From IMG/VR virus record IMGVR_UViG_3300027704_000180, positions 1 through 22,459 of that record: a stretch of 22,459 nt of DNA; one strand, 5' to 3'. The position numbers and the translations under genes are program-made. Shown piece by piece: positions 2,451 through 22,459 of the stretch. Numbering within the stretch: position 1 is the stretch's first letter; each line of letters opens with the position of its first letter. Below the pieces are notes generated by a model. It saw nothing but the letters and a program-made list of their open reading frames with translations, searched no databases and was not told the DNA's origin. The stretch comes from a virus.

Positions 2451-4098
2451 AGATCAAATATATCTTGGTAATCCTAGACTAAAAAAAGCTAATGTAAAAA
2501 TTGAATACACAAAAGAGCAGATTAAAGAACTAGCAAGATGCTCAAAAGATATTTTATATTTTTGTAATAAGTATATGAAGATTGTAAATGTGGATGAAGG
2601 TTTAATTAACTTTAATACATTTGATTTCCAAGACAGAATAATAAAAAGTGTACAAGGTAATCGTTTTACTATATGTAAGATGCCTAGACAGTCTGGTAAG
2701 ACTACTGTTATGACTGCTCTTATATTACATTTTGCTTTATTCAATGAATCATTTAATGTAGCTGTGCTAGCTAATAAGGCTGCAACTGCTAGAGAGATCT
2801 TACATAGAATACAATTAGGTTTTGAATACTTACCACATTGGATGCAACAAGGTATAGTAGAGTGGAACAAAGGTAATGTAGAGCTAGAGAATGGTTCTAA
2901 GATATTAGCTGGTGCAACATCATCAGGTTCTGTTCGTGGTGGTTCTTTTAACTTAATATACTTAGATGAGTTTGCATTTGTACCACCGCATCAGCAAGAA
3001 GAATTTTTTGCATCAACTTATCCTACAATTTCTTCTGGTAATACAACAAGAGTTATGATAACGTCTACTCCTAGAGGTATGAATCTTTTCTATAAAATAT
3101 GGACAGATGCTGTTGAACAAAGAAGTGAGTATGAAGCTATCGAAGTTCATTGGTCTGATGTACCAGGTAGAGATGAGGCTTGGAAAAAACAAACCATACA
3201 AAATACAAGTGAAGAACAATTCAGAGTAGAGTTTGAATGTGAGTTCTTAGGTTCATCTAATACACTTATACATCCTACTAAGTTAGGAGAGTTAGTCTTT
3301 CATGAGCCATTATCTAAATCAGAGAATATGAAAGTATTTAAAGAACCTCAACCCAATCATGTATATACTATATGTGTTGATACATCAAGAGGTGTTGGTA
3401 ATGATTATTCCGCTTTCATTGTTATTGATTGTAGTGTGCTTCCTTATGAGGTAGTAGCTACATTCAGAAGTAATATTATAGCACCTATGATATATCCTAA
3501 TGTAATATATGCAGCTGGTAAAAAATATAATAATGCATACTGTCTTGTAGAAATAAATGACATAGGACAGCAAGTAGCAGACATACTACATCATGATCTT
3601 GAGTATGAATTTATAATGACAGCACAATGGAGAGGCAGAGCAGGACAAATAGTTAATGCTGGCTTTGGTGGTGGATCCCAACAGATGGGTGTAAGAACTA
3701 CCAAACAATTAAAAAGAGTAGGTTGTTCTACATTAAAAACTATCATAGAGAACGATAAGTTAATAATTAATGACTTTGATATACTGCAAGAGCTTACAGC
3801 TTTCTCTGTAAAAGGTACTAGCTTTGAAGCAGAAGAAGGTTATAATGATGATTTAGTAATGTGTTTAGTATTGTTTGCTTGGTTATCTAATCAAGAATAC
3901 TTTAAAGAACTAACAGATATTGATATAAGAAAGAATTTATTTAGTAAAAATGAACAAGCAATTGAGGATGATGTATTACCATTTGGATTTATTAATGATG
4001 GTACAGGTGGTAGTGTAGCAGAGAATGATGAGTTTGGTGCAGACACATTACTAACACATGCGGAGTGGGACATAGATGATACACAAGGAATATTCTAA
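2440..4098 (+). CDS. 17: Terminase large subunit gp17 (packaging ATPase and nuclease)
   Basis: Motor that pumps DNA into the prohead and cuts the concatemer. 552 residues against 610 in T4; the difference is a shorter N-terminus. ATPase domain: Walker A MPRQSGKT at 81-88 and Walker B LIYLDEF with D176 and E177. Nuclease domain (RNase H fold): D314 in ICVDTSRG, E371 in LVEIND and D471 in GYNDDLVMCLV, matching T4 D401, E458 and D542. The start is TTG at 2440: LRKDQIYLGNPRLKKANVK aligns with T4 YMGLPNLKRANIK, and the first in-frame ATG lies too far downstream (residue 46, shortly before the conserved region). It overlaps the SNase gene by 11 bases. No intein or intron-like interruption is seen. 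Confidence 0.96.
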   Translation: MLRKDQIYLGNPRLKKANVKIEYTKEQIKELARCSKDILYFCNKYMKIVNVDEGLINFNTFDFQDRIIKSVQGNRFTICKMPRQSGKTTVMTALILHFALFNESFNVAVLANKAATAREILHRIQLGFEYLPHWMQQGIVEWNKGNVELENGSKILAGATSSGSVRGGSFNLIYLDEFAFVPPHQQEEFFASTYPTISSGNTTRVMITSTPRGMNLFYKIWTDAVEQRSEYEAIEVHWSDVPGRDEAWKKQTIQNTSEEQFRVEFECEFLGSSNTLIHPTKLGELVFHEPLSKSENMKVFKEPQPNHVYTICVDTSRGVGNDYSAFIVIDCSVLPYEVVATFRSNIIAPMIYPNVIYAAGKKYNNAYCLVEINDIGQQVADILHHDLEYEFIMTAQWRGRAGQIVNAGFGGGSQQMGVRTTKQLKRVGCSTLKTIIENDKLIINDFDILQELTAFSVKGTSFEAEEGYNDDLVMCLVLFAWLSNQEYFKELTDIDIRKNLFSKNEQAIEDDVLPFGFINDGTGGSVAENDEFGADTLLTHAEWDIDDTQGIF

Positions 4099-4723
4099 AC
4101 CATATAAATTAAAACTACCAACACCATCAAAAGAACTTCAAACATTAGTAAAATTGTTTTCTAATAGTTGGGGATATGGGCAAAGACAAACGCAGCAAAG
4201 GAAATACTTAAACAATTTAACTAACAGTAATAGTGCTGCACATGACTTTGTACCGTATACTGTTGGACCAGAAGCAGAACAAATGAATCCATATATGAAA
4301 GAATATGAAGAGATATTTGGTGAAAGTATAGTTCCAATCCTAGGTATTATGAGAAATGTTACAACTAAACCAGCTTGCATCCCACCACATTTAGATAAGG
4401 TTAAAGGAGCTAGTGTTAATTTTGTTATAGAATCTGGTGGAGACAATTGTACAACAGTACTATATGATAAGGCTAGAACAAAAAATACTGAAGATGTTTT
4501 ATTTATTGATAGAGATAAAGTTAATAGTATTGGTGAATATGATCTTAATAGTGGATGGTATGTGTTTGATACACAACGAGTTCACTCTGTAGAAAACATA
4601 ATAAGTAGGAGAGTAGTACTAACTCTTATGCCAGTATCGGAAATTAGTATGGAAAAATTTATTTTATCATATGATCATTTAATTTGCGAGCCTGCAGTTT
4701 TTATAAATAAATACAAGCCCTAA
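4076..4723 (+). CDS. 2OG-Fe(II) oxygenase-like protein
   Basis: 215 residues. The C-terminal half carries the signature of the double-stranded beta-helix fold: PPHLDK gives H105 and D107, FDTQRVHSVEN gives the distal H170, and SRRVVLTLMP gives R178 or R179 in the position that binds 2-oxoglutarate. This HxD...H...R pattern predicts a non-haem iron oxygenase that hydroxylates a protein, nucleic acid or small molecule; the substrate cannot be told. The N-terminal half (residues 1-90) is not recognised. The ATG overlaps the end of gp17 by 23 bases. A late-promoter-like box lies inside its last 25 bases and would serve gp18. In T4 gp18 follows gp17 directly, so this gene is an insertion relative to the T4 core. 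Confidence 0.7.
   Translation: MIHKEYSKPYKLKLPTPSKELQTLVKLFSNSWGYGQRQTQQRKYLNNLTNSNSAAHDFVPYTVGPEAEQMNPYMKEYEEIFGESIVPILGIMRNVTTKPACIPPHLDKVKGASVNFVIESGGDNCTTVLYDKARTKNTEDVLFIDRDKVNSIGEYDLNSGWYVFDTQRVHSVENIISRRVVLTLMPVSEISMEKFILSYDHLICEPAVFINKYKP
4702..4709 (+). promoter_or_regulatory. T4-type late promoter box upstream of gp18
   Basis: A perfect TATAAATA, the -10 element recognised by gp55-type late sigma factors, lies inside the last codons of the oxygenase-like gene. T4 spacing predicts transcription from about 4715, leaving a 50-base leader before gp18. Confidence 0.7.
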
Positions 4724-4764
4724 ATTACAAGCACCACTAAAGGTCATATAAGGAGAAACAAGAT

Positions 4765-6963
4765 ATGGGATTTCAAGTTAGTCCAGGCGTAAACGTCTCC
4801 GAGATAGATCTGACAGGCATTATACCTGCAGTTTCTACCACAGAAGGCGCCCTAGCTGGTTGGTTTAGATGGGGAGCTGCTGAAGAACGCAACCTAATAT
4901 CTTCTGAAGAAGAGTTAGTTAGTGCCTTTGGTGAGCCAGATTCAACCAACTTTAATACATTTTTCACTGCTGCAAACTTTTTATCTTATGGTAATAAGTT
5001 ATTTGTAGCAAGAGCAATACCAGATGATGCAATTAATTCAACTGTATTGCAAAACCAATCAACAGTTGCAAACAATCAAGTAGCAGCTCAAACAGATTTA
5101 ATTAAAAACTCAGAACACCACGATGGTCTAACATTATCATCTACTGCAGCACTGTCATCTTTCATAGCAAAGTATCCAGGTGCATTAGGTAATAGTTTAA
5201 AAGTCAGTGTATGTGATAGTGCACTAGCATTTGAAAGTACATTTAATGGTGTAACAAACAGTTCAATGAATGTTAATGCATCCAATACTGGTTTTGTAGC
5301 ATCTATTGCTGTAGGTAGTACAACATTACTATTCAGTCAATCAGGTGTTGAAGAAGACACTAATAGTACTAGTCAAGCAACTCATGTTATTAGAGTTGGT
5401 GCTAACCTATCTATGACTACTGCACAAACAGTATTCTCAGTTGGTGACTCAGTACGTTTAGGTAACTCATCTATTGGTTATCAAACAGTTAAGATTACAG
5501 CAAAGAGTGCTGTACAATCCGGAGCAGCATTTGCTGATTCAGATACAACATTTACTGCTAATGTATCATTTACTGTAGAGCCTAAGTTCAGACTATCAAC
5601 TAACTTTAGTTGTAACAACAGTGTTGGCGATAGTATTAACTCAGGAGGCGTTACACGTTTCTGGGAAAATAGAGACAACGTTGATAAAGCACCAGGTCAA
5701 ACTGAATGGTCAAACAACGTAGCTAATAATACAGCCAATGATGAATTACATATAGTTGTATCAGATGAAGACGGATTAATCACAGGTGTTAAAGATAACA
5801 TCTTAGAAGTATGGGAAGGTCTATCAAGAGCTACTGATGCTAAGAACGAAAGTGGTGAGTCAATATTCTGGAAAGATGTTATCGATAATCAATCTAATTG
5901 GTTGTGGGTAGGTGGAGCAGAACTTAGAGCAACATCTAATGTTAATACTGCTGCACAAACATATTCCAATACTGGTGCATTATTAAACAATCATGTTAAT
6001 GCTGTAATACCATTTACATCATCTTTCCAAGTAGGTTCAGATGGATCTAATCCAAATGAAACTTCAATTGCTATAGGACAATTAGCTAAAGCTGTTGACC
6101 TATTCAAGAATCCAGCGGATGTTGATGTATCATTAATACTAACTGGCTTGTCCAGAGGTGGTACTAATGGAGAGCAATGGCCAAATTATCTTATAGATAA
6201 TATTAGTGACGCAAGAAAAGACTGCGTAGTTTTCTTATCACCTGAAAAGGCTGATGTAGTAAACAATCAAGGTGGTGAATCAAATGATGTTAAAACATTT
6301 GCAGATTCAGTATCACCAAGTTCATATGCGGTTATGGATAGTGGATGGAAATATCAATACGATAAGTATAATGATGTTTACAGATACATTCCATTGAATG
6401 GTGACATAGCTGGCCTTTGTGTTAGAACAGATGATACAAGAGACCCATGGTTCAGTCCTGCAGGATATAATAGAGGTGTAATTAAAAATGTAATTAAACT
6501 TCCATACAATCCAGATAAAGCAGACAGAGATATACTTTATAAAAATAAAGTTAATCCTGTAATAACTCAACCAGGTCAAGGAACATTACTGTTTGGAGAC
6601 AAGACTTTATTAGCTAAACCAAGTGCATTTGATAGAATCAACGTAAGAAGATTATTCATTGTTCTTGAAAAGGCAATAGCAACTGCAGCTAAGTACACTC
6701 TATTTGAATTCAATGATGAATTTACTAGAGCACAGTTCCGTAATATGGTAGAACCATTCCTACGAGATGTACAAGGCAGAAGAGGTATATTTGACTTTAG
6801 AGTTGTATGTGACGAGACAAACAATACTGGAGAAGTAATTGATGGCAATAGGTTTGTAGGAGACATCTACATTAAGCCTGCTAGATCAATTAATTTCATT
6901 CAGTTGAACTTTGTAGCGGTTCGTACAGGGGTTGAATTCTCTGAGGTCGTTGGTTCATTCTAA
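4765..6963 (+). CDS. 18: Tail sheath protein gp18
   Basis: Contractile sheath subunit that polymerises around the tail tube and shortens on infection. 732 residues against 659 in T4; the extra length appears to be in the variable, surface-exposed middle (roughly residues 100-300, rich in Ser, Thr and Asn). The conserved ends are clear: an N-terminal VSPGVNVSEIDLTGIIPAVS, and a C-terminal region with RRLFIVLEKAIATAAKYTLF, FNDEFTR, then VGDIYIKPARSINFI near the end. The C-terminal region carries the strand-exchange core that links neighbouring subunits in contractile systems. A good ribosome binding site, AAGGAG at 4750-4755, lies 9 bases before the ATG. It is followed by gp19 in the standard order. 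Confidence 0.96.
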   Translation: MGFQVSPGVNVSEIDLTGIIPAVSTTEGALAGWFRWGAAEERNLISSEEELVSAFGEPDSTNFNTFFTAANFLSYGNKLFVARAIPDDAINSTVLQNQSTVANNQVAAQTDLIKNSEHHDGLTLSSTAALSSFIAKYPGALGNSLKVSVCDSALAFESTFNGVTNSSMNVNASNTGFVASIAVGSTTLLFSQSGVEEDTNSTSQATHVIRVGANLSMTTAQTVFSVGDSVRLGNSSIGYQTVKITAKSAVQSGAAFADSDTTFTANVSFTVEPKFRLSTNFSCNNSVGDSINSGGVTRFWENRDNVDKAPGQTEWSNNVANNTANDELHIVVSDEDGLITGVKDNILEVWEGLSRATDAKNESGESIFWKDVIDNQSNWLWVGGAELRATSNVNTAAQTYSNTGALLNNHVNAVIPFTSSFQVGSDGSNPNETSIAIGQLAKAVDLFKNPADVDVSLILTGLSRGGTNGEQWPNYLIDNISDARKDCVVFLSPEKADVVNNQGGESNDVKTFADSVSPSSYAVMDSGWKYQYDKYNDVYRYIPLNGDIAGLCVRTDDTRDPWFSPAGYNRGVIKNVIKLPYNPDKADRDILYKNKVNPVITQPGQGTLLFGDKTLLAKPSAFDRINVRRLFIVLEKAIATAAKYTLFEFNDEFTRAQFRNMVEPFLRDVQGRRGIFDFRVVCDETNNTGEVIDGNRFVGDIYIKPARSINFIQLNFVAVRTGVEFSEVVGSF

Positions 6964-7575: not shown

Positions 7576-9177
7576 ATGGCGGAATTATTTGGGTTTGAGT
7601 TTAAAAGAAAAGGTGTAAGTCAGGAACAGGACATTGGTTCCTTTGCACCAAAGATAGATGACGAAGGTGCTATAACAGTCGCAGAAGGTGGCGCTTATGG
7701 TACCTACGTTGATCTTGAAGGCTCAACCAGAACCGAATCAGAACTCATTACAAGATACAGACGTATGGCTTTACAGCCAGAGTGTGAGCTTGCTGTAGAT
7801 GACATAGTTAATGAAACTATTGTCTATGGAGAAGAGCATAAGATTTGTGAATTGAATTTGGATAGTTTAGAAGCTAGTCCAAAACTTAAACAACTTATAC
7901 GTGAAGAATTTGATAACACATTAAGACTATTAGACTTTAATAGTAAGGGTTATGAAATCTTTAGACATTGGTACATTGATGGTAGACTATATTATCATGT
8001 AGTAATAGATCCTAAAGATCCAGAATCAGGTGTTAGAGAACTACGTTACATTGATCCAAGAAAAATTAAAAAGATCAGAACAGTAAACAAGCAAAGAGTT
8101 GGGAACCAGATAGCTGGACCTGGCGCTGTTACTATTACAAAAACAAAAGAAGAATACTTTATCTATAATGAAAAGGGCTTTACAGGATATCCTGGTGGCT
8201 CTCCAACTGCAGCTTCTGGTGAGCAAGGTGTTAAGATTGCCAGAGACTCTATCATTAATTGTACATCTGGTATGATGTCAGAAGATAATAGAATAGTATT
8301 ATCACATTTACATAAAGCTATTAAACCATTAAACCAATTACGTATTTTAGAAGATGCAACTGTTATCTATAGGATATCAAGAGCACCTGAAAGAAGAGTG
8401 TTCTATATTGATGTGGGTAATCTACCTAAGTTAAAAGCAGAACAGTATTTAAGAGACATGATGGTTAAGCATAAAAATAGATTAGTATATGATGCTGGTA
8501 CTGGAGAAGTAAGAGACGATCGTAAATTTATGACTATGTTAGAAGACTATTGGTTACCTAGAAGAGAAGGTGGCAGAGGTACTGAGATAACAACATTAGG
8601 TGCTGGTCAAAACTTAGGCGAATTAGATGACGTACTATACTTCCAAAAGAAATTATACAGATCATTAAATGTTCCTGTATCAAGATTAGAATCAGAGACT
8701 GGTTTCCAACTAGGTAGAAGTACAGAGATAAGTAGAGATGAATTAAAGTTCCAAAAGTTTATTGGTAGAACTCGTAATAGATTCTCAATATTATTTGATA
8801 AAGTTTTAGAGAAACAAATAGTACTTAAAGGTATTATGACTTTAGATGAATACAATGAAGCTAAAGAAAGTATCAGATATGACTTTATGGAAGACAATCA
8901 TTTCTCAGAACTTAAAGAGATGGAGATTCAAACAGAAAGAGTTAACGCCCTAAATAATATCGATCCATTTATTGGTAGATACTTCTCACAGAGATGGGCT
9001 AAGAAGAATATATTAAGAATGACAGATGAGCAAATGGAACAAATGGATGCTGAAATAGCACAGGAACAAGAAGATGGAACTATTCATCAAGACCTTGAAC
9101 CTGCTGGTAAAGAAGAGATGCCAGATGAACCAATAGACGGTGGTCCTCCAGAAGGTGAAGAACCGCCTGCTGAATAA
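7576..9177 (+). CDS. 20: Portal vertex protein gp20
   Basis: Dodecameric portal at the unique head vertex; it starts prohead assembly and is the channel for gp17-driven packaging. 533 residues, close to T4 (524). Recognisable segments: LITRYRRMALQPECELAVDDIVNE near the N-terminus, RHWYIDGRLYYHVVID, LRYIDPRKIKKIR, YRISRAPERRVFYIDVGNLP, the ...TMLEDYWLPRREGGRGTEI region, LDDVLYFQKKLYRSLNVP and ...FGRTRNRFS-like clip/stem residues around IGRTRNRFSILF. The C-terminus is a long acidic, Pro- and Gly-rich tail. It follows gp19 by 31 bases and begins after AAGGTGA at 7562-7568. No late-promoter box lies directly ahead, so it probably reads through from the gp19 promoter. Confidence 0.96.
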   Translation: MAELFGFEFKRKGVSQEQDIGSFAPKIDDEGAITVAEGGAYGTYVDLEGSTRTESELITRYRRMALQPECELAVDDIVNETIVYGEEHKICELNLDSLEASPKLKQLIREEFDNTLRLLDFNSKGYEIFRHWYIDGRLYYHVVIDPKDPESGVRELRYIDPRKIKKIRTVNKQRVGNQIAGPGAVTITKTKEEYFIYNEKGFTGYPGGSPTAASGEQGVKIARDSIINCTSGMMSEDNRIVLSHLHKAIKPLNQLRILEDATVIYRISRAPERRVFYIDVGNLPKLKAEQYLRDMMVKHKNRLVYDAGTGEVRDDRKFMTMLEDYWLPRREGGRGTEITTLGAGQNLGELDDVLYFQKKLYRSLNVPVSRLESETGFQLGRSTEISRDELKFQKFIGRTRNRFSILFDKVLEKQIVLKGIMTLDEYNEAKESIRYDFMEDNHFSELKEMEIQTERVNALNNIDPFIGRYFSQRWAKKNILRMTDEQMEQMDAEIAQEQEDGTIHQDLEPAGKEEMPDEPIDGGPPEGEEPPAE

Positions 9178-9178
9178 T

Positions 9179-9186
9179 TATAAATA
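9179..9186 (+). promoter_or_regulatory. T4-type late promoter box upstream of the gp67-like gene
   Basis: A perfect TATAAATA directly after the gp20 stop codon, followed by a second AAATA. Transcription would start near 9192, leaving about 16 bases of leader with AAGGA at 9196-9200. T4 also has a late promoter ahead of its head-core genes. Confidence 0.72.
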
Positions 9187-9207
9187 AATATACGTAAGGA
9201 TATTATT

Positions 9208-9486
9208 ATGCCAGAGAACAATAGTGACCAAATGATTAAATTTGCAGCACAAGGCAAGCCAGCAAAATTCGGTGACCAGTTTGGTGACCTAATGAAAGAT
9301 AAAGTTAATGCTGGTGTTGAAGCTATAAGAGCAAAAGTCGCAGCCAAGTTAGCAGGCCTTGACCCAACAGGAGATGTTGGTGATGGTGCTGAAGAAGGTG
9401 GTAATAACACTAGCACACAAGATGATGCTGAGATGGAATTAACACCTGAAGAAGAAAAAGAGCTTGATGCAGAAGAAGCAACATAA
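9208..9486 (+). CDS. 67: Prohead core protein, gp67-like
   Basis: 92 residues, close to T4 gp67 (80). gp67 is an internal scaffold component of the prohead that gp21 cleaves during maturation. The match is in design rather than in long sequence identity: an N-terminal helix (FGDLMKDKVNAGVEAIRAKV) followed by a highly acidic low-complexity tail of Asp, Glu, Gly and Asn. T4 gp67 has the same helix-then-acid-tail layout and the same position between gp20 and gp21. A late-promoter box and a ribosome binding site precede it. Because acidic tails evolve fast, the assignment is by synteny and composition and is only moderately sure. Confidence 0.6.
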   Translation: MPENNSDQMIKFAAQGKPAKFGDQFGDLMKDKVNAGVEAIRAKVAAKLAGLDPTGDVGDGAEEGGNNTSTQDDAEMELTPEEEKELDAEEAT

Positions 9487-14423: not shown

Positions 14424-14430
14424 AAATTGT

Positions 14431-14435
14431 GGAGG
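14431..14435 (+). promoter_or_regulatory. Ribosome binding site selecting the ATG at 14442
   Basis: GGAGG lies 6 bases before ATG at 14442. It shows that the in-frame TTG at 14427, which precedes this site, is not the start. Confidence 0.8.
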
Positions 14436-14441
14436 TTTGTT

Positions 14442-14972
14442 ATGAACATATTTGTATTAGATAGAGATCCTAAGATCGCAGCATATCAGATGTGCGATAA
14501 GCATGTAGTTAAAATGATACTAGAATCAGCTCAAATGTTATCAGCTGTACTAGATTGTCAGTATAAGAATAAACATAGAAGCAAAGATAATGAACCTGTG
14601 ATAGAACGATTTGGCCTACCAGGCTATCCTAAAGCTCATGCAAAACATCCTTGTACCTTATGGGTTAGAGCATCAAAACAAAATGCTATGTGGTTAGTAA
14701 AACATATGAGAGCCTTATGTTTTGAATACTTTAAACGATACAATAAGTTTCATAAGTATGACGCATACCCTTTATTGTATGAGGCACAATTAAAGTATTG
14801 TGAATTTGAACAACCATGTGCAACAGAATTTGTACAAGCAATAACAAATAAAGAATTACATAGAGATGATCCAGTAGAAGGATACAGAGAGTATTATAGA
14901 AAAGAGAAAGCTCATTTCTGTACTTGGAAGCATGGTGACATACCAGAATGGTTTAGCAATGACATTAGATGA
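14442..14972 (+). CDS. Conserved phage protein with CDKHVVKM motif, function unknown
   Basis: 176 residues from the ATG that follows GGAGG. The N-terminus MNIFVLDRDPKIAAYQMCDKHVVKMILES is a pattern I recognise from a widespread family of phage hypothetical proteins. Other likely conserved spots are HPCTLWVRASKQNAMWL (a His-Pro-Cys and Trp-rich segment), the YPLLYEAQLKYCEFE region and YREYYRKEKAHFCTWKHGDIPEW. The repeated Cys, His, Asp and Trp residues suggest an enzyme or metal-binding protein, but no catalytic scheme can be named from sequence. There is no signal peptide or membrane segment. It is the first gene after the sigma70-type promoter, so it is probably made early, and it heads a run of DNA recombination genes. 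A link with DNA metabolism is inferred from context. Confidence 0.75.
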   Translation: MNIFVLDRDPKIAAYQMCDKHVVKMILESAQMLSAVLDCQYKNKHRSKDNEPVIERFGLPGYPKAHAKHPCTLWVRASKQNAMWLVKHMRALCFEYFKRYNKFHKYDAYPLLYEAQLKYCEFEQPCATEFVQAITNKELHRDDPVEGYREYYRKEKAHFCTWKHGDIPEWFSNDIR

Positions 14973-18435: not shown

Positions 18436-18981
18436 ATGGCACATTATGTAGATAATAAAATTCTTTATGCTACTATGATTGAGTATAAAGATAAAGTTAA
18501 TGAAGCTGAGGCTGTAGATGATCCTAAGCCACCTATACCAGATATTGTAGGAAGCGCATTACTTAAAATAGCAAATAGGTTATCAACTAAACCTAATTTT
18601 ATAAACTATACATTTAGAGAAGAGATGGTTAGTGATGGGATAGAGAACTGTATTAATTATATTGATAACTTTGATCCAAAAAAGTCTAAGAATCCTTTTG
18701 CATACTTTACTCAAATAATATACTATGCCTTCCTAAGAAGAATACAAAAAGAAAAGAAACAATTATATATTAAACATAAAGCAATACAAAACTTTCAAAT
18801 ATTTGATGGATGGATGGATCCTGCTGATGGTCAAATGATATCCACACAGCAAGGTTTACCAGAGACTACAGACTATATGAGTGACTTTGTAAAGAATTAT
18901 GAACAAAAAGAAAAAGAGAAAAAACAGCAGAGGCCTGCAACACCGCCTAGAGGGGTTGAACAATTTTATAAAGAGAAGTGA
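18436..18981 (+). CDS. 55: Late transcription sigma factor gp55
   Basis: 181 residues, close to T4 gp55 (185). It is the divergent sigma factor that directs host RNA polymerase to TATAAATA late promoters, coupled to the gp45 clamp. The sigma region 2-like core is clear: FREEMVSDGIENCINYIDNF (T4: [20 protein letters not shown]), PKKSKNPFAYFTQIIYYAFL and RRIQKEKKQLYIKHK (T4: RIKKERKEVAKKYSYF). The last residues, GVEQFYKEK, match the position of the T4 clamp-binding tail (SLDFLYE) with a hydrophobic Phe-Tyr pair. It starts 1 base after the Sm-like gene with no clear ribosome binding site, so coupling is likely. Five boxes that it could recognise lie in this window. Confidence 0.92.
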   Translation: MAHYVDNKILYATMIEYKDKVNEAEAVDDPKPPIPDIVGSALLKIANRLSTKPNFINYTFREEMVSDGIENCINYIDNFDPKKSKNPFAYFTQIIYYAFLRRIQKEKKQLYIKHKAIQNFQIFDGWMDPADGQMISTQQGLPETTDYMSDFVKNYEQKEKEKKQQRPATPPRGVEQFYKEK

Positions 18982-18984
18982 TTT

Positions 18985-20046
18985 ATGAAAATAGCATTAG
19001 TGACTGATTTGCATTTTGGTGCTCGTAACGATAACATTAAAGTAGCAGCTAACCAAAAGAGATTTTATGATGAAGTATTCTTTCCTTACTTAAAAGAACA
19101 TAACATCAATACTGTAATAGATTTGGGCGATACCTTTGATCGTAGAAAGTATATTTCTTTCACATCTTTAAAGGCAGCTAAGGCTATGTTCTTTGAACCC
19201 TTAAAAGAAAACAATATAACCACACATATGTTAGTAGGTAATCATGACGCTGTGTATAGAAACACTAATGAATTAAACTCAGTGTATCTGTTAACTCAAG
19301 AGTATCCTAATATTATAGAGTATCATCAACCGTCAGAAATAAACATAGGTGGATGCGATCTACTTATGCTGCCGTGGATATGTAAAGACAATGAGAAGCA
19401 ATCGTATCAAATGATAAAAGATACAACAGCTCAAATAGTTATGGGTCACCTAGAGTTAAAAGGTTTCCAGATGAATAAAGGATATGTAATACAAGAAGGT
19501 GCAGACCATACAATATATGATAAGTTTGATATGGTATGTACTGGACACTATCATCATAAGTCTACAGAGAAGAATATTAACTATCTTGGTTGTCCATATG
19601 AAATGACATGGATGGACTATGAGGATCCTAAAGGCTTTCATATATTTGATACTGAAACAAGAGTGTTGACTAGAGTCGTAAACCCTAATAGAATGTTTTA
19701 TAAGTTATGGTACAATGATACTAACTTAACATTTGAAGATGTAATGGCTATGGACTTTACACCTTACCAGAATGCTTATGTTAAAATTATAGTATCTAAT
19801 AAAACTAATCCATACTTATTTGATACGTATGTAGATAAGGTAGAGAAAGCAGATACTATTAATCTACAAGTAGTTGAAGATCATTTACATTTAGATATAG
19901 ATGATGATGCAGATATAATTAATGAAGCAGAAGATACACCTACTATATTAGAGTCGTATGTAGAGGCTTTAGATATTAAAACTGATAAAGAAAAAGTAAA
20001 AAACTTATTAAGAAATTTATATGATAGGGCATTGAGTATAACATGA
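18985..20046 (+). CDS. 47: Recombination endonuclease subunit gp47 (Mre11-like)
   Basis: 353 residues against 339 in T4. Calcineurin-like metallophosphoesterase that with gp46 resects double-strand ends for recombination-dependent replication and degrades host DNA. Phosphoesterase motifs are in order: VTDLHFG with D8 and H10, DLGDTFDRRKY with D49, GNHDAV with N86, H87, D88, then MGHLELKG and TGHYHHKS, giving the full two-metal site. The C-terminal half is the capping and gp46-binding region. The start has AGAGAAG shortly upstream and lies 3 bases after gp55. Its stop overlaps the gp46 start in ATGA, as expected for two subunits of one complex made in step. Confidence 0.95.
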   Translation: MKIALVTDLHFGARNDNIKVAANQKRFYDEVFFPYLKEHNINTVIDLGDTFDRRKYISFTSLKAAKAMFFEPLKENNITTHMLVGNHDAVYRNTNELNSVYLLTQEYPNIIEYHQPSEINIGGCDLLMLPWICKDNEKQSYQMIKDTTAQIVMGHLELKGFQMNKGYVIQEGADHTIYDKFDMVCTGHYHHKSTEKNINYLGCPYEMTWMDYEDPKGFHIFDTETRVLTRVVNPNRMFYKLWYNDTNLTFEDVMAMDFTPYQNAYVKIIVSNKTNPYLFDTYVDKVEKADTINLQVVEDHLHLDIDDDADIINEAEDTPTILESYVEALDIKTDKEKVKNLLRNLYDRALSIT

Positions 20047-21752
20047 TAGTATTTAAAAATATTAAATGGAAGAACTTTATATCTTATGGTAACCATTGGA
20101 CAGAAGTAGATCTAAATCAAACAAAGTCTTCTTTAATTATAGGAGAGAATGGTTCTGGTAAGTCTACTATATTAGATGCACTAACATTTGGTCTGTATAA
20201 TAAACCATTTAGAAAAGTAACTGTACAACAATTAGTTAATACTATCAACAATAAAGACATGGTTGTAGAAGTAGAATTTGGTATTGGTTCTCATGAGTAT
20301 AAAATTGTTAGAGGACAGAGGCCAAGAAAGTTTGAAGTGTATCAAGATGGTAAACTATTAAACCAAGAAGCCCATGCAAAAGATTATCAAGAGACCCTTG
20401 AAAAACAAATACTAAAGCTCAACCATAAGAGCTTTTGTCAAGTGGTTGTGTTAGGTAGCTCCAGCTTTATTCCTTTCATGCAGCTACCAACCAACCATAG
20501 GAAAGAAGTTATAGAAGACTTACTAGACATAGGTATCTTTTCTATTATGGCAACACTATTAAAAACTGATGTTGCAGATAATAAAGAACGTGCACAAGAA
20601 CTATCTAGTGAACTCAATACTATAGAAGAGAAGATAAGAATTCAACAACACTTTGTAGATAAAATATCACAGCAACAAGATGAAGCTATAGCAGATAAGA
20701 AAGAACAAATAATAAAACTTGAGAATGAAAATAGTATTAGTGAAGTTAATCTAAAAGATCAAGAGACTGATCTATCTAAGTTAAGAAAAGAGGTAGCAGA
20801 AGAAGAGAAGATTCGTTCAAAGTTAAATCAACTTAGTAACCTAGAAGATAAAATAAAAGATAAAGTTAAAACTCTCAGAAAAGATATACAGTTCTTTGAT
20901 ACTCATGATGATTGTCCTACGTGTAACCAATCTATAGATGAAGACTTTAAAGCTAAAGTAATAGATGAGAAAGAAGATAAAGTAGAAGAGTGTGAAGCAG
21001 GTTTTGAACCATTAGAAAAAGAACTGGAGTCTACACAAGGAGAGATCAATCATATAGTAGAGGTGTACCAAAAGATGGATGGTATGAATGTACAAATTAA
21101 TTCTTTGAACTCTCAGATGAATGGTAACAGACAATTGATATCATCTCTACAGACAGATATAGACAATACATCTAAGCAAGATATTACAGAAGAGAAAAAT
21201 AAAATTAAAGACTTTACTATAGAGTTAGATAGTAAAAGAAAAGATGTAGAAGAGTTTACTGATGTGAGAGAAATATATGATGTAGCTACTAAGTTGTTAA
21301 GAGACACAGGAATAAAATCTAGAATAGTTAAACAATATATTCCTGTAATGAACAAACTTATTAATAAGTACTTAGCAGCTATGGATTTCTTTGTACAGTT
21401 TGAATTAGATGAAAACTTTAATGAGAATATTAAGTCTAGGTTTAGAGATGAGTTTACATATGCATCTTTTAGTGAAGGTGAAAAGATGAGAATAGATTTA
21501 TCATTATTGTTTACTTGGAGAGCAATTGCTAAGTTAAAAAATAGTGCTAGTACAAATTTATTAATACTAGATGAGATATTTGATAGTAGCTTAGACGCAC
21601 AGGGTACGGATGAGTTCTTAAAAATAATAAATGACTTGACTTTAGATACAAATGTGTTTATAATAAGTCATAAGACAGATCAGTTGATAGACAAATTTTC
21701 TAACGTAGTTAGATTTGAGAAGCATCAAAACTTTAGTAGGATGGTAGCATGA
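20043..21752 (+). CDS. 46: Recombination endonuclease subunit gp46 (Rad50-like ATPase)
   Basis: 569 residues against 560 in T4. SMC-type ATPase partner of gp47. Walker A GENGSGKS at 34-41 in the N-terminal lobe. A coiled-coil arm runs from about 180 to 400, with a zinc-hook CPTC at 291-294 at its apex, which allows two molecules to join. The C-terminal lobe carries the ABC signature SEGEK starting at 477 and Walker B LLILDE with D510 and E511. The H-loop is ISHK near the end. All essential parts are present. It overlaps gp47 and the following deformylase-like gene by 4 bases each (ATGA), making one translationally coupled run. Confidence 0.96.
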   Translation: MIVFKNIKWKNFISYGNHWTEVDLNQTKSSLIIGENGSGKSTILDALTFGLYNKPFRKVTVQQLVNTINNKDMVVEVEFGIGSHEYKIVRGQRPRKFEVYQDGKLLNQEAHAKDYQETLEKQILKLNHKSFCQVVVLGSSSFIPFMQLPTNHRKEVIEDLLDIGIFSIMATLLKTDVADNKERAQELSSELNTIEEKIRIQQHFVDKISQQQDEAIADKKEQIIKLENENSISEVNLKDQETDLSKLRKEVAEEEKIRSKLNQLSNLEDKIKDKVKTLRKDIQFFDTHDDCPTCNQSIDEDFKAKVIDEKEDKVEECEAGFEPLEKELESTQGEINHIVEVYQKMDGMNVQINSLNSQMNGNRQLISSLQTDIDNTSKQDITEEKNKIKDFTIELDSKRKDVEEFTDVREIYDVATKLLRDTGIKSRIVKQYIPVMNKLINKYLAAMDFFVQFELDENFNENIKSRFRDEFTYASFSEGEKMRIDLSLLFTWRAIAKLKNSASTNLLILDEIFDSSLDAQGTDEFLKIINDLTLDTNVFIISHKTDQLIDKFSNVVRFEKHQNFSRMVA

Positions 21753-22327
21753 AAATAAAGAATTTAGAAAAGATACAGAAACAATTATCTACTGTTATGG
21801 ATAACTCCAAAGGTCTTAAACCAAGTGGTTTTGAAATAGAAGATACAGATTTAAAACTAAGTATGAAAGACGATTACTTATGGGATGAATTACCTACTTT
21901 TAATTTTGAGGACCCTCCTGTAGATCCAGTTAAGTTTTCTATGGCTATGGTAACACTGATGAGAGAAAAAGGTGGTATGGCATTAGCTGCTAACCAAGTA
22001 GGACATAACTTTGCAATGTTTGTTACAGAAGGTGAGCCAGCCTTTGCAATATTTAATCCTACAATAACATTTAGAAGTCCTAATGAAGTACTAATGGATG
22101 AAGCATGCTTATCCTTTCCTGGTCTTAACTTAAAAATAAAACGTCCAGCATCTATTCGTATAAGATTTCAAGAGCCATATGGTAATTGGATAACAAAACA
22201 GTTTGCAGGAATGAGTGCAAGAGTATTTTTACAAATGGCTGATCATTTAATAGGTGTTGACTTCACTGACAAAGTAAGTAAACTAAAATTAGATATGGCA
22301 AAAAAGAAAGTGAAAAGTAATGGGTAG
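21749..22327 (+). CDS. Peptide-deformylase-like protein with altered active site
   Basis: 192 residues. Peptide deformylases remove the formyl group from new N-termini using Cys and two His (of HExxH) as metal ligands and the Glu as catalyst. Motif 1 here is GMALAANQ at 76-83 (usual GxGLAAxQ, Gln kept). Motif 2 is EACLS with C120 kept (usual EGCLS). Motif 3 reads QMADH at 162-166 within ARVFLQMADHLIGVDFTDKV, which aligns without gap to the usual ARxxQHExDHLxGxLFxDR. Thus the first His is Gln and the catalytic Glu is Met, while H166 is kept. Canonical catalysis is unlikely. It may bind formyl-Met ends without cutting, or have a new activity. The frame is intact and shares 4 bases with gp46 and 8 with an ACP gene. 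Confidence 0.85.
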   Translation: MKIKNLEKIQKQLSTVMDNSKGLKPSGFEIEDTDLKLSMKDDYLWDELPTFNFEDPPVDPVKFSMAMVTLMREKGGMALAANQVGHNFAMFVTEGEPAFAIFNPTITFRSPNEVLMDEACLSFPGLNLKIKRPASIRIRFQEPYGNWITKQFAGMSARVFLQMADHLIGVDFTDKVSKLKLDMAKKKVKSNG

Positions 22328-22459
22328 AGATGTATCAATACCTAATATCTATGACTCTATAGTTAAGATATTAGCTGGGGAATTAGAAATAGATGAGTCA
22401 AGAATACAACATAAGAGTCATATACTAAATGATCTTGGTGGTGATAGTTTACAAATTGT
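22320..22459 (+). CDS. Acyl carrier protein-like gene (3' truncated by the window)
   Basis: The ATG at 22320 overlaps the end of the deformylase-like gene by 8 bases and the frame stays open to the window edge (46 complete codons). The visible part reads like the first half of an acyl carrier protein: helix 1 IYDSIVKILAGELEIDESRI, then the loop and NDLGGDSLQI. The D-S-L triad puts the phosphopantetheine attachment at Ser43 (codon 22446-22448), close to Ser36 of E. coli ACP allowing for the longer N-terminus. ACPs carry acyl groups in fatty-acid, lipid or peptide-type synthesis. Modification would require a phosphopantetheinyl transferase, host or phage. What is joined to it lies outside the window, so a free ACP and a carrier domain of a larger protein cannot be told apart. 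Confidence 0.8.
   Translation, partial: MGRDVSIPNIYDSIVKILAGELEIDESRIQHKSHILNDLGGDSLQI

Follow-up and report, generated by a model that had tools for sequence, protein, structure and literature searches.

The analysed stretch of 22,459 nucleotides (IMG/VR virus record IMGVR_UViG_3300027704_000180), hereafter called the window, is by its sequence a fragment of a T4-like phage, and its major capsid protein shares 67.5% identity with that of Stenotrophomonas phage DLP_6 and 62-63% with those of the phages Melnitz and Mosig. The last complete gene of the window encodes a relative of peptide deformylase (PDF), the enzyme trimming new bacterial proteins, and is flanked by genes predicted to encode a gp46-like SbcC subunit and an acyl carrier protein (ACP; Table 1). 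The ACP gene is complete in the locus L001 (PF00550, E 1.9e-12 for the L001 copy), where a 2OG-Fe(II) oxygenase gene and a QueD/PTPS gene lie beyond it (3572-5791 for the whole stretch from the ACP gene).

Table 1. Coordinates of the genes and motifs around the putative pseudo-deformylase gene of the window.
Feature	Position	Strand	Basis
gp55-like late sigma factor	18436..18981	+	PHROG 234, E 1.8e-61
gp47-like SbcD subunit	18985..20046	+	PHROG 100, E 3.5e-107
gp46-like SbcC subunit, directly upstream of the PDF gene with a 4-base overlap	20043..21752	+	PHROG 77, E 2.5e-170
Putative pseudo-deformylase gene, predicted PDF fold, 192 aa, intact, last complete gene of the window	21749..22327	+	PF01327, PHROG 2890, AlphaFold2 model
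Motif I, GMALAANQ against canonical GphiGphiAAxQ; Ala replaces the second Gly, Gln83 retained	21974..21997	+	alignment
Motif II, EACLS (canonical EGCxS; Gly to Ala, Cys120 kept)	22100..22114	+	alignment
Motif III, QMADH against canonical HExDH; Gln replaces the first His and Met the catalytic Glu, last His retained	22232..22246	+	alignment
Basic C-terminal tail, VDFTDKVSKLKLDMAKKKVKSNG, net charge +4, located where E. coli PDF has its ribosome-docking helix	22256..22324	+	
ACP gene, downstream; start overlaps the PDF stop, truncated by the window end	22320..22459	+	

Judging from its profile matches the encoded protein is a member of the PDF family by descent. It matches PF01327 (Pep_deformylase) with an E value of 5.6e-27 and 94.7 bits against a cut-off of 22.8, residues 62-180 aligning with profile positions 29-154, and PHROG 2890 (peptide deformylase) with an E value of 9.7e-32. 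Structure modelling, which had been proposed in the first-pass annotation of this DNA, yielded a predicted PDF fold (AlphaFold2, mean pLDDT 85, core above 90) whose top matches in the PDB are PDFs, for example 1lme_B with a TM score of 0.90 and 3uwa from phage S-SSM7 with 0.84 by target length.

The gap-free alignment agrees with what the first-pass annotation had read from the letters: a deformylase-like protein with QMADH in place of HExxH, in which Gln162 and Met163 occupy the sites of the first metal-binding His and the catalytic Glu while Gln83, Cys120 and His166 are kept. The frame is intact and the codons are CAA ATG GCT GAT CAT (Q162 M163 A164 D165 H166), which face HEYDH in the closest relatives. 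Two further motif changes, G78A and G119A, were absent from the earlier list. G78A (GIGL to GMAL) falls on a column at which the 140 other aligned phage PDFs carry Gly without exception, and motif I of the window fails both the canonical GphiGphiAAxQ and the updated phiGphiAAxQ (PMC12690207). G119A may be tolerated, given that EACLS also occurs in the HE-bearing relative L002. QMADH fails the HExxH motif required of an active PDF. Since the first metal-binding His and the catalytic Glu are gone, no deformylation is expected according to established PDF chemistry, and the protein has very probably lost this chemistry.

Beyond motif III the model contains a helix at residues 178-191, and the tail of the window protein equals that of L002 up to residue 189. 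At the DNA level both are identical over 59 bases just past QMADH (22253-22311), compared with a gene-wide synonymous divergence of about 0.33, as if this stretch had been recently shared or were constrained.

A second contig, IMGVR_UViG_3300030105_000748, shows no difference from the window over 3711 overlapping bases. The closest relative, L002 (84% identical to the window), carries GIGLAANQ and HEYDH, as do L003 and L004 (about 72% identical). In motif III the window differs from L002 by five substitutions in nine bases which keep the frame, and a read error is therefore unlikely. Compensating frameshifts were considered by eye on the window/L002 alignment and were rejected as no more parsimonious than five substitutions. 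As its closest relative has intact motifs, the loss in the window must have happened recently and in place. The window pairs with the HE-bearing L002 at a support of 96 in a tree of 116 phage PDFs and of 97 in a tree with the isolates and L233 (see below) added, and its end branch of 0.14 compares with a median of 0.155 for live PDFs. Because the loss is recent, a retained function cannot be told from a recent loss in the window itself.

QMADH is unique among the phage PDFs surveyed. A search of the viral_contigs set with the pattern FLQMADHL returned the identical second contig as the sole PDF match, the hits in six other contigs being to short frames unrelated to PDF, and no donor of the QMADH patch was found for the window or L012 at up to 3 mismatches. 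In L006-L011 the stretch FLQMADHF occurs in a short frame within DNA close to TTTCTCCAAATGGCTGACCATTTCC that recurs across several virus contigs; it is probably part of another conserved gene on the other strand. The idea of a QMADH clade with conserved neighbours of its own thus did not hold, since among the sequences searched the variant was limited to the window virus, represented by two contigs identical in their overlap, and lies among the same neighbours as live PDFs. The genes for gp47, gp46 and ACP also surround PDF in the HE-bearing L002, L003 and L004, in the same order as in the window save for a short extra ORF before PDF in L003. The PDF-ACP neighbourhood is common to all four.

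The survey for further broken phage PDFs was based on patterns needing F-x4-D-H. In scans unselective at the Glu codon, HE was present in 145 of the 147 distinct PDFs among the matches listed, the exceptions being the window and L160, so that the earlier statement of a nearly invariant HExxH is sustained for phage PDFs. The targeted scans selected for a first base other than G in the Glu codon or for a purine as third base of the His codon, so that in metagenomes they covered replacements of Glu by residues other than Ala, Asp, Gly and Val in sequences that retain the last His. These Glu-excluding scans revealed six more broken phage PDF types. Given as motif II/motif III with the residues at the Cys, His, Glu and His sites, they are L160 (identical to L191 and L192; ETSFS/HQMDH, S H Q H), L185 (identical to L187; ETSLT/QQVDH, S Q Q H), L184 (ESCLT/NQFDH, C N Q H), L189 (DMDIS/QNLDH, D Q N H), L194 (EGCLT/HKLDH, C H K H) and L233 (identical to L234; ETCHS/HHVDH, where Cys and both His are kept and His replaces Glu). 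Among the aligned phage PDFs 135 of 141 carry Cys/His/Glu/His, as against Cys/Gln/Met/His in the window. L194, with its one changed residue (Glu to Lys), could represent a single error or a recent change. Eight loci flagged as devoid of motif I proved on reading to be full-length frames with a variant motif I. When the non-Glu pattern was applied to 84,980 bacterial genomes, 38 contigs matched and none was a PDF; since the HE version recovered PDFs in just 3 of 436 genomes sampled, this comparison of bacteria with phages is rough.

L233 belongs to a 156-kb virus record in which no second PDF was found, and it had no DNA match among named phages. At about 8400-9300 it encodes a PDF relative of 253 residues with MVALSANQ and a long acidic C-terminal extension; the second Gly of its motif I is changed to Ala, as in the window.

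Two cultured isolates with broken PDFs were found among the named phages whose PDF genes were read. The protein of Rhizobium phage RHph_I1_18 (QIG70619.1) has EISPS and QLIEI as motifs II and III, and that of Ochrobactrum phage vB_OspM_OC (QIG65681.1) has DVCPL and RAIEA as well as Met for the Gln of motif I; both carry the annotation peptide deformylase. In the broken PDFs other than that of the window, the number of lost residues among Cys, His, Glu and His ranges from one to four. The complete genomes of the isolates (171 and 228 kb) contain a single PF01327 match each, in line with one PF01327 gene per record throughout. In public records the motif-less proteins of MN988519.1 (37077-37658) and MT028491.1 (14307-14801) are labelled 'peptide deformylase', the former also with GO terms for iron binding and deformylase activity.

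In the tree of 116 phage PDFs the first six broken types (window, L160, L184, L185, L189 and L194), whose best relatives all have Cys/His/Glu/His, correspond to six losses, at least five of them forced, and to six also when the motif columns are removed. With L233 and both isolates added, the nine broken types correspond to eight losses, at least five being forced by well-supported branches. RHph_I1_18 and vB_OspM_OC group together (support 77) beside the HE-bearing Caulobacter phage Cr30 (90) and may share one loss, although both sit on long branches and their grouping is uncertain. The best reading is that the conversion of PDF to a pseudoenzyme in place is recurrent in T4-like phages.

In all eight broken types with flanks read (window, L160, L184, L185, L189, L194, RHph_I1_18 and vB_OspM_OC) gp46 immediately precedes PDF or is found near it, and in both isolates the PDF gene comes after that of endonuclease subunit 2 (gp46). 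Live phage PDFs have the same placement after gp46. In several phages among L160, L185, L194 and L119 a common pair of proteins is encoded after PDF, be it live or dead, the former starting with MNIFY and the latter with a stretch resembling VxxFHxxFGQR; an MNIFV homologue of the former is encoded at 14427-14972 of the window.

Taken together, we propose as the best explanation a catalytic loss in place combined with a kept non-catalytic role, most likely at the ribosome, to which we assign a probability of roughly one half. The starting point is the ordinary PDF of the phage in its ordinary place after gp46. Its catalytic centre has recently been lost, the first metal-binding His changing to Gln, the catalytic Glu to Met and the Gly of the substrate strand to Ala, while the predicted fold, the frame and the basic C-terminal tail have been preserved. 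Hypothetically, the pseudo-PDF might then dock by its tail near the ribosomal tunnel exit and compete there with the host PDF and methionine aminopeptidase; alternatively, it might hold formyl-Met N-termini unprocessed. In E. coli, PDF binds the ribosome via its C-terminal helix, with an affinity of about 2 uM, and is a competitor of MAP (PMC8712518). What the analysis shows are the altered residues, the recurrence of such losses, the common gene position, uninterrupted frames and the predicted fold, whereas the loss of activity is a strong inference from established PDF chemistry and ribosome docking with competition is hypothetical. The suggestion in the first-pass annotation that the fold is repurposed to bind formyl-Met peptides or ribosomes is likewise possible, and the predicted fold, the frames and the basic tail fit it. 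The evidence from the tail is weak: eight of the nine broken types have a basic one after motif III but L233 an acidic one, and the charge does not differ in live PDFs with tails (median +6). A wider version is rather doubtful; under it, T4-like phages would repeatedly make of PDF a ribosome-associated protein without enzymatic function, by which host N-terminal processing is blocked or delayed in the course of infection.

The main rival of a retained role is the decay of a dispensable enzyme: the host PDF suffices, the catalytic residues have drifted away and the gene is leaving without any remaining function. The end branches are longer in broken than in live types (Mann-Whitney P 0.008), which fits relaxed constraint as well as a new function, and the lost residues differ by lineage, as if any inactivating change will do. 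Furthermore, dN/dS between the window and L002 is higher for PDF (0.27) than for gp47 (0.07) and gp46 (0.09). This value is not diagnostic, since pairs of HE-bearing PDFs range from 0.07 to 0.40, and dN/dS was dropped as a proof of selection because live pairs vary as widely. Against decay, all 172 PDF loci surveyed are free of stops and frameshifts, and even the long-branched broken types (L184, L189, L233 and both isolates) have full-length frames. The protein is identical in L160, L191 and L192, which come from three samples and differ by 0.2-1.4% in the surrounding DNA. Moreover, 6 of the 21 changes private to the window fall in the 21 motif residues (P 0.015 against an even spread, post hoc), a concentration that pure relaxation does not predict. 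We prefer a retained role and regard decay as possible though less likely.

A kept non-catalytic role away from the ribosome, such as assisting or regulating the gp46/gp47 recombination complex, would be in keeping with the placement behind gp46 that live and broken types have in common. However, phage gene order often reflects just expression timing, and other genes intervene between gp46 and PDF in L194, L132 and Mosig, so that such a role seems improbable.

It is very unlikely that the window protein retains enzymatic activity, with the metal bound by Gln162, Cys120 and His166 and with another general base. Three potential ligands are left and the pocket fold is predicted at high confidence, but the catalytic Glu is Met, and parallel types lose Cys or, as in the two isolates, the whole HExxH site, which argues against a common replacement chemistry and against the different metal chemistry considered in the first-pass annotation. 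A sequencing or assembly artefact is least credible of all: QMADH was found in one virus population only and both contigs possibly derive from related libraries, yet these agree over their whole overlap, the five in-frame substitutions are accompanied by a separate change in motif I, and equivalent losses occur in other samples and in two isolate genomes.

With regard to known systems, the active phage PDFs (S-SSM7, 3uwa; Vp16, 5mtc; PHROG 2890) share a homologous core and the same predicted fold with the window protein; they keep all three motifs, whereas the window protein has neither the first His nor the catalytic Glu. When marine phage PDFs were first aligned, their catalytic motifs proved perfectly conserved (as cited in PMC5591237). 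Most viral PDFs have shortened C-termini (PMC5591237), in contrast to the basic tail found here. Type 3 and inactive accessory PDFs of S. aureus, S. pneumoniae, trypanosomes and Archaea are altered in conserved motifs and show little activity or none (PMC5591237; PMC12690207), and in this respect resemble the window protein as PDF homologues. The substitutions of type 3 PDFs, however, sit in motifs I and II (PMC12690207), while the window protein is broken in motif III (HExxH). In addition, bacteria with type 3 or accessory PDFs also hold an active PDF, whereas the broken copy is the only PDF of the phage where the whole genome was checked, and the loss in the window appears in place on a tree made up of phage PDFs. 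According to PMC7029224, all pelagimyophages have PDF in their core genome inside a DNA metabolism operon, a placement resembling the gene position in the window phage.

Phage PDFs are generally taken as active enzymes, and annotation assigns them this activity. No report of deformylase pseudoenzymes in phages was found in the literature searched, and recurrent PDF loss in phages appears to be new within what could be searched. A match to PF01327 or PHROG 2890 alone is thus an unsafe basis for deformylase activity. Several broken lineages, including cultured phages whose sole PDF is apparently dead, point to a gene kept without its chemistry, and the live and dead versions of one gene at one genomic position offer a handle on what phages use PDF for. 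If the wider version considered above is true, a class of phage pseudoenzymes would be hidden under the annotation 'peptide deformylase'.
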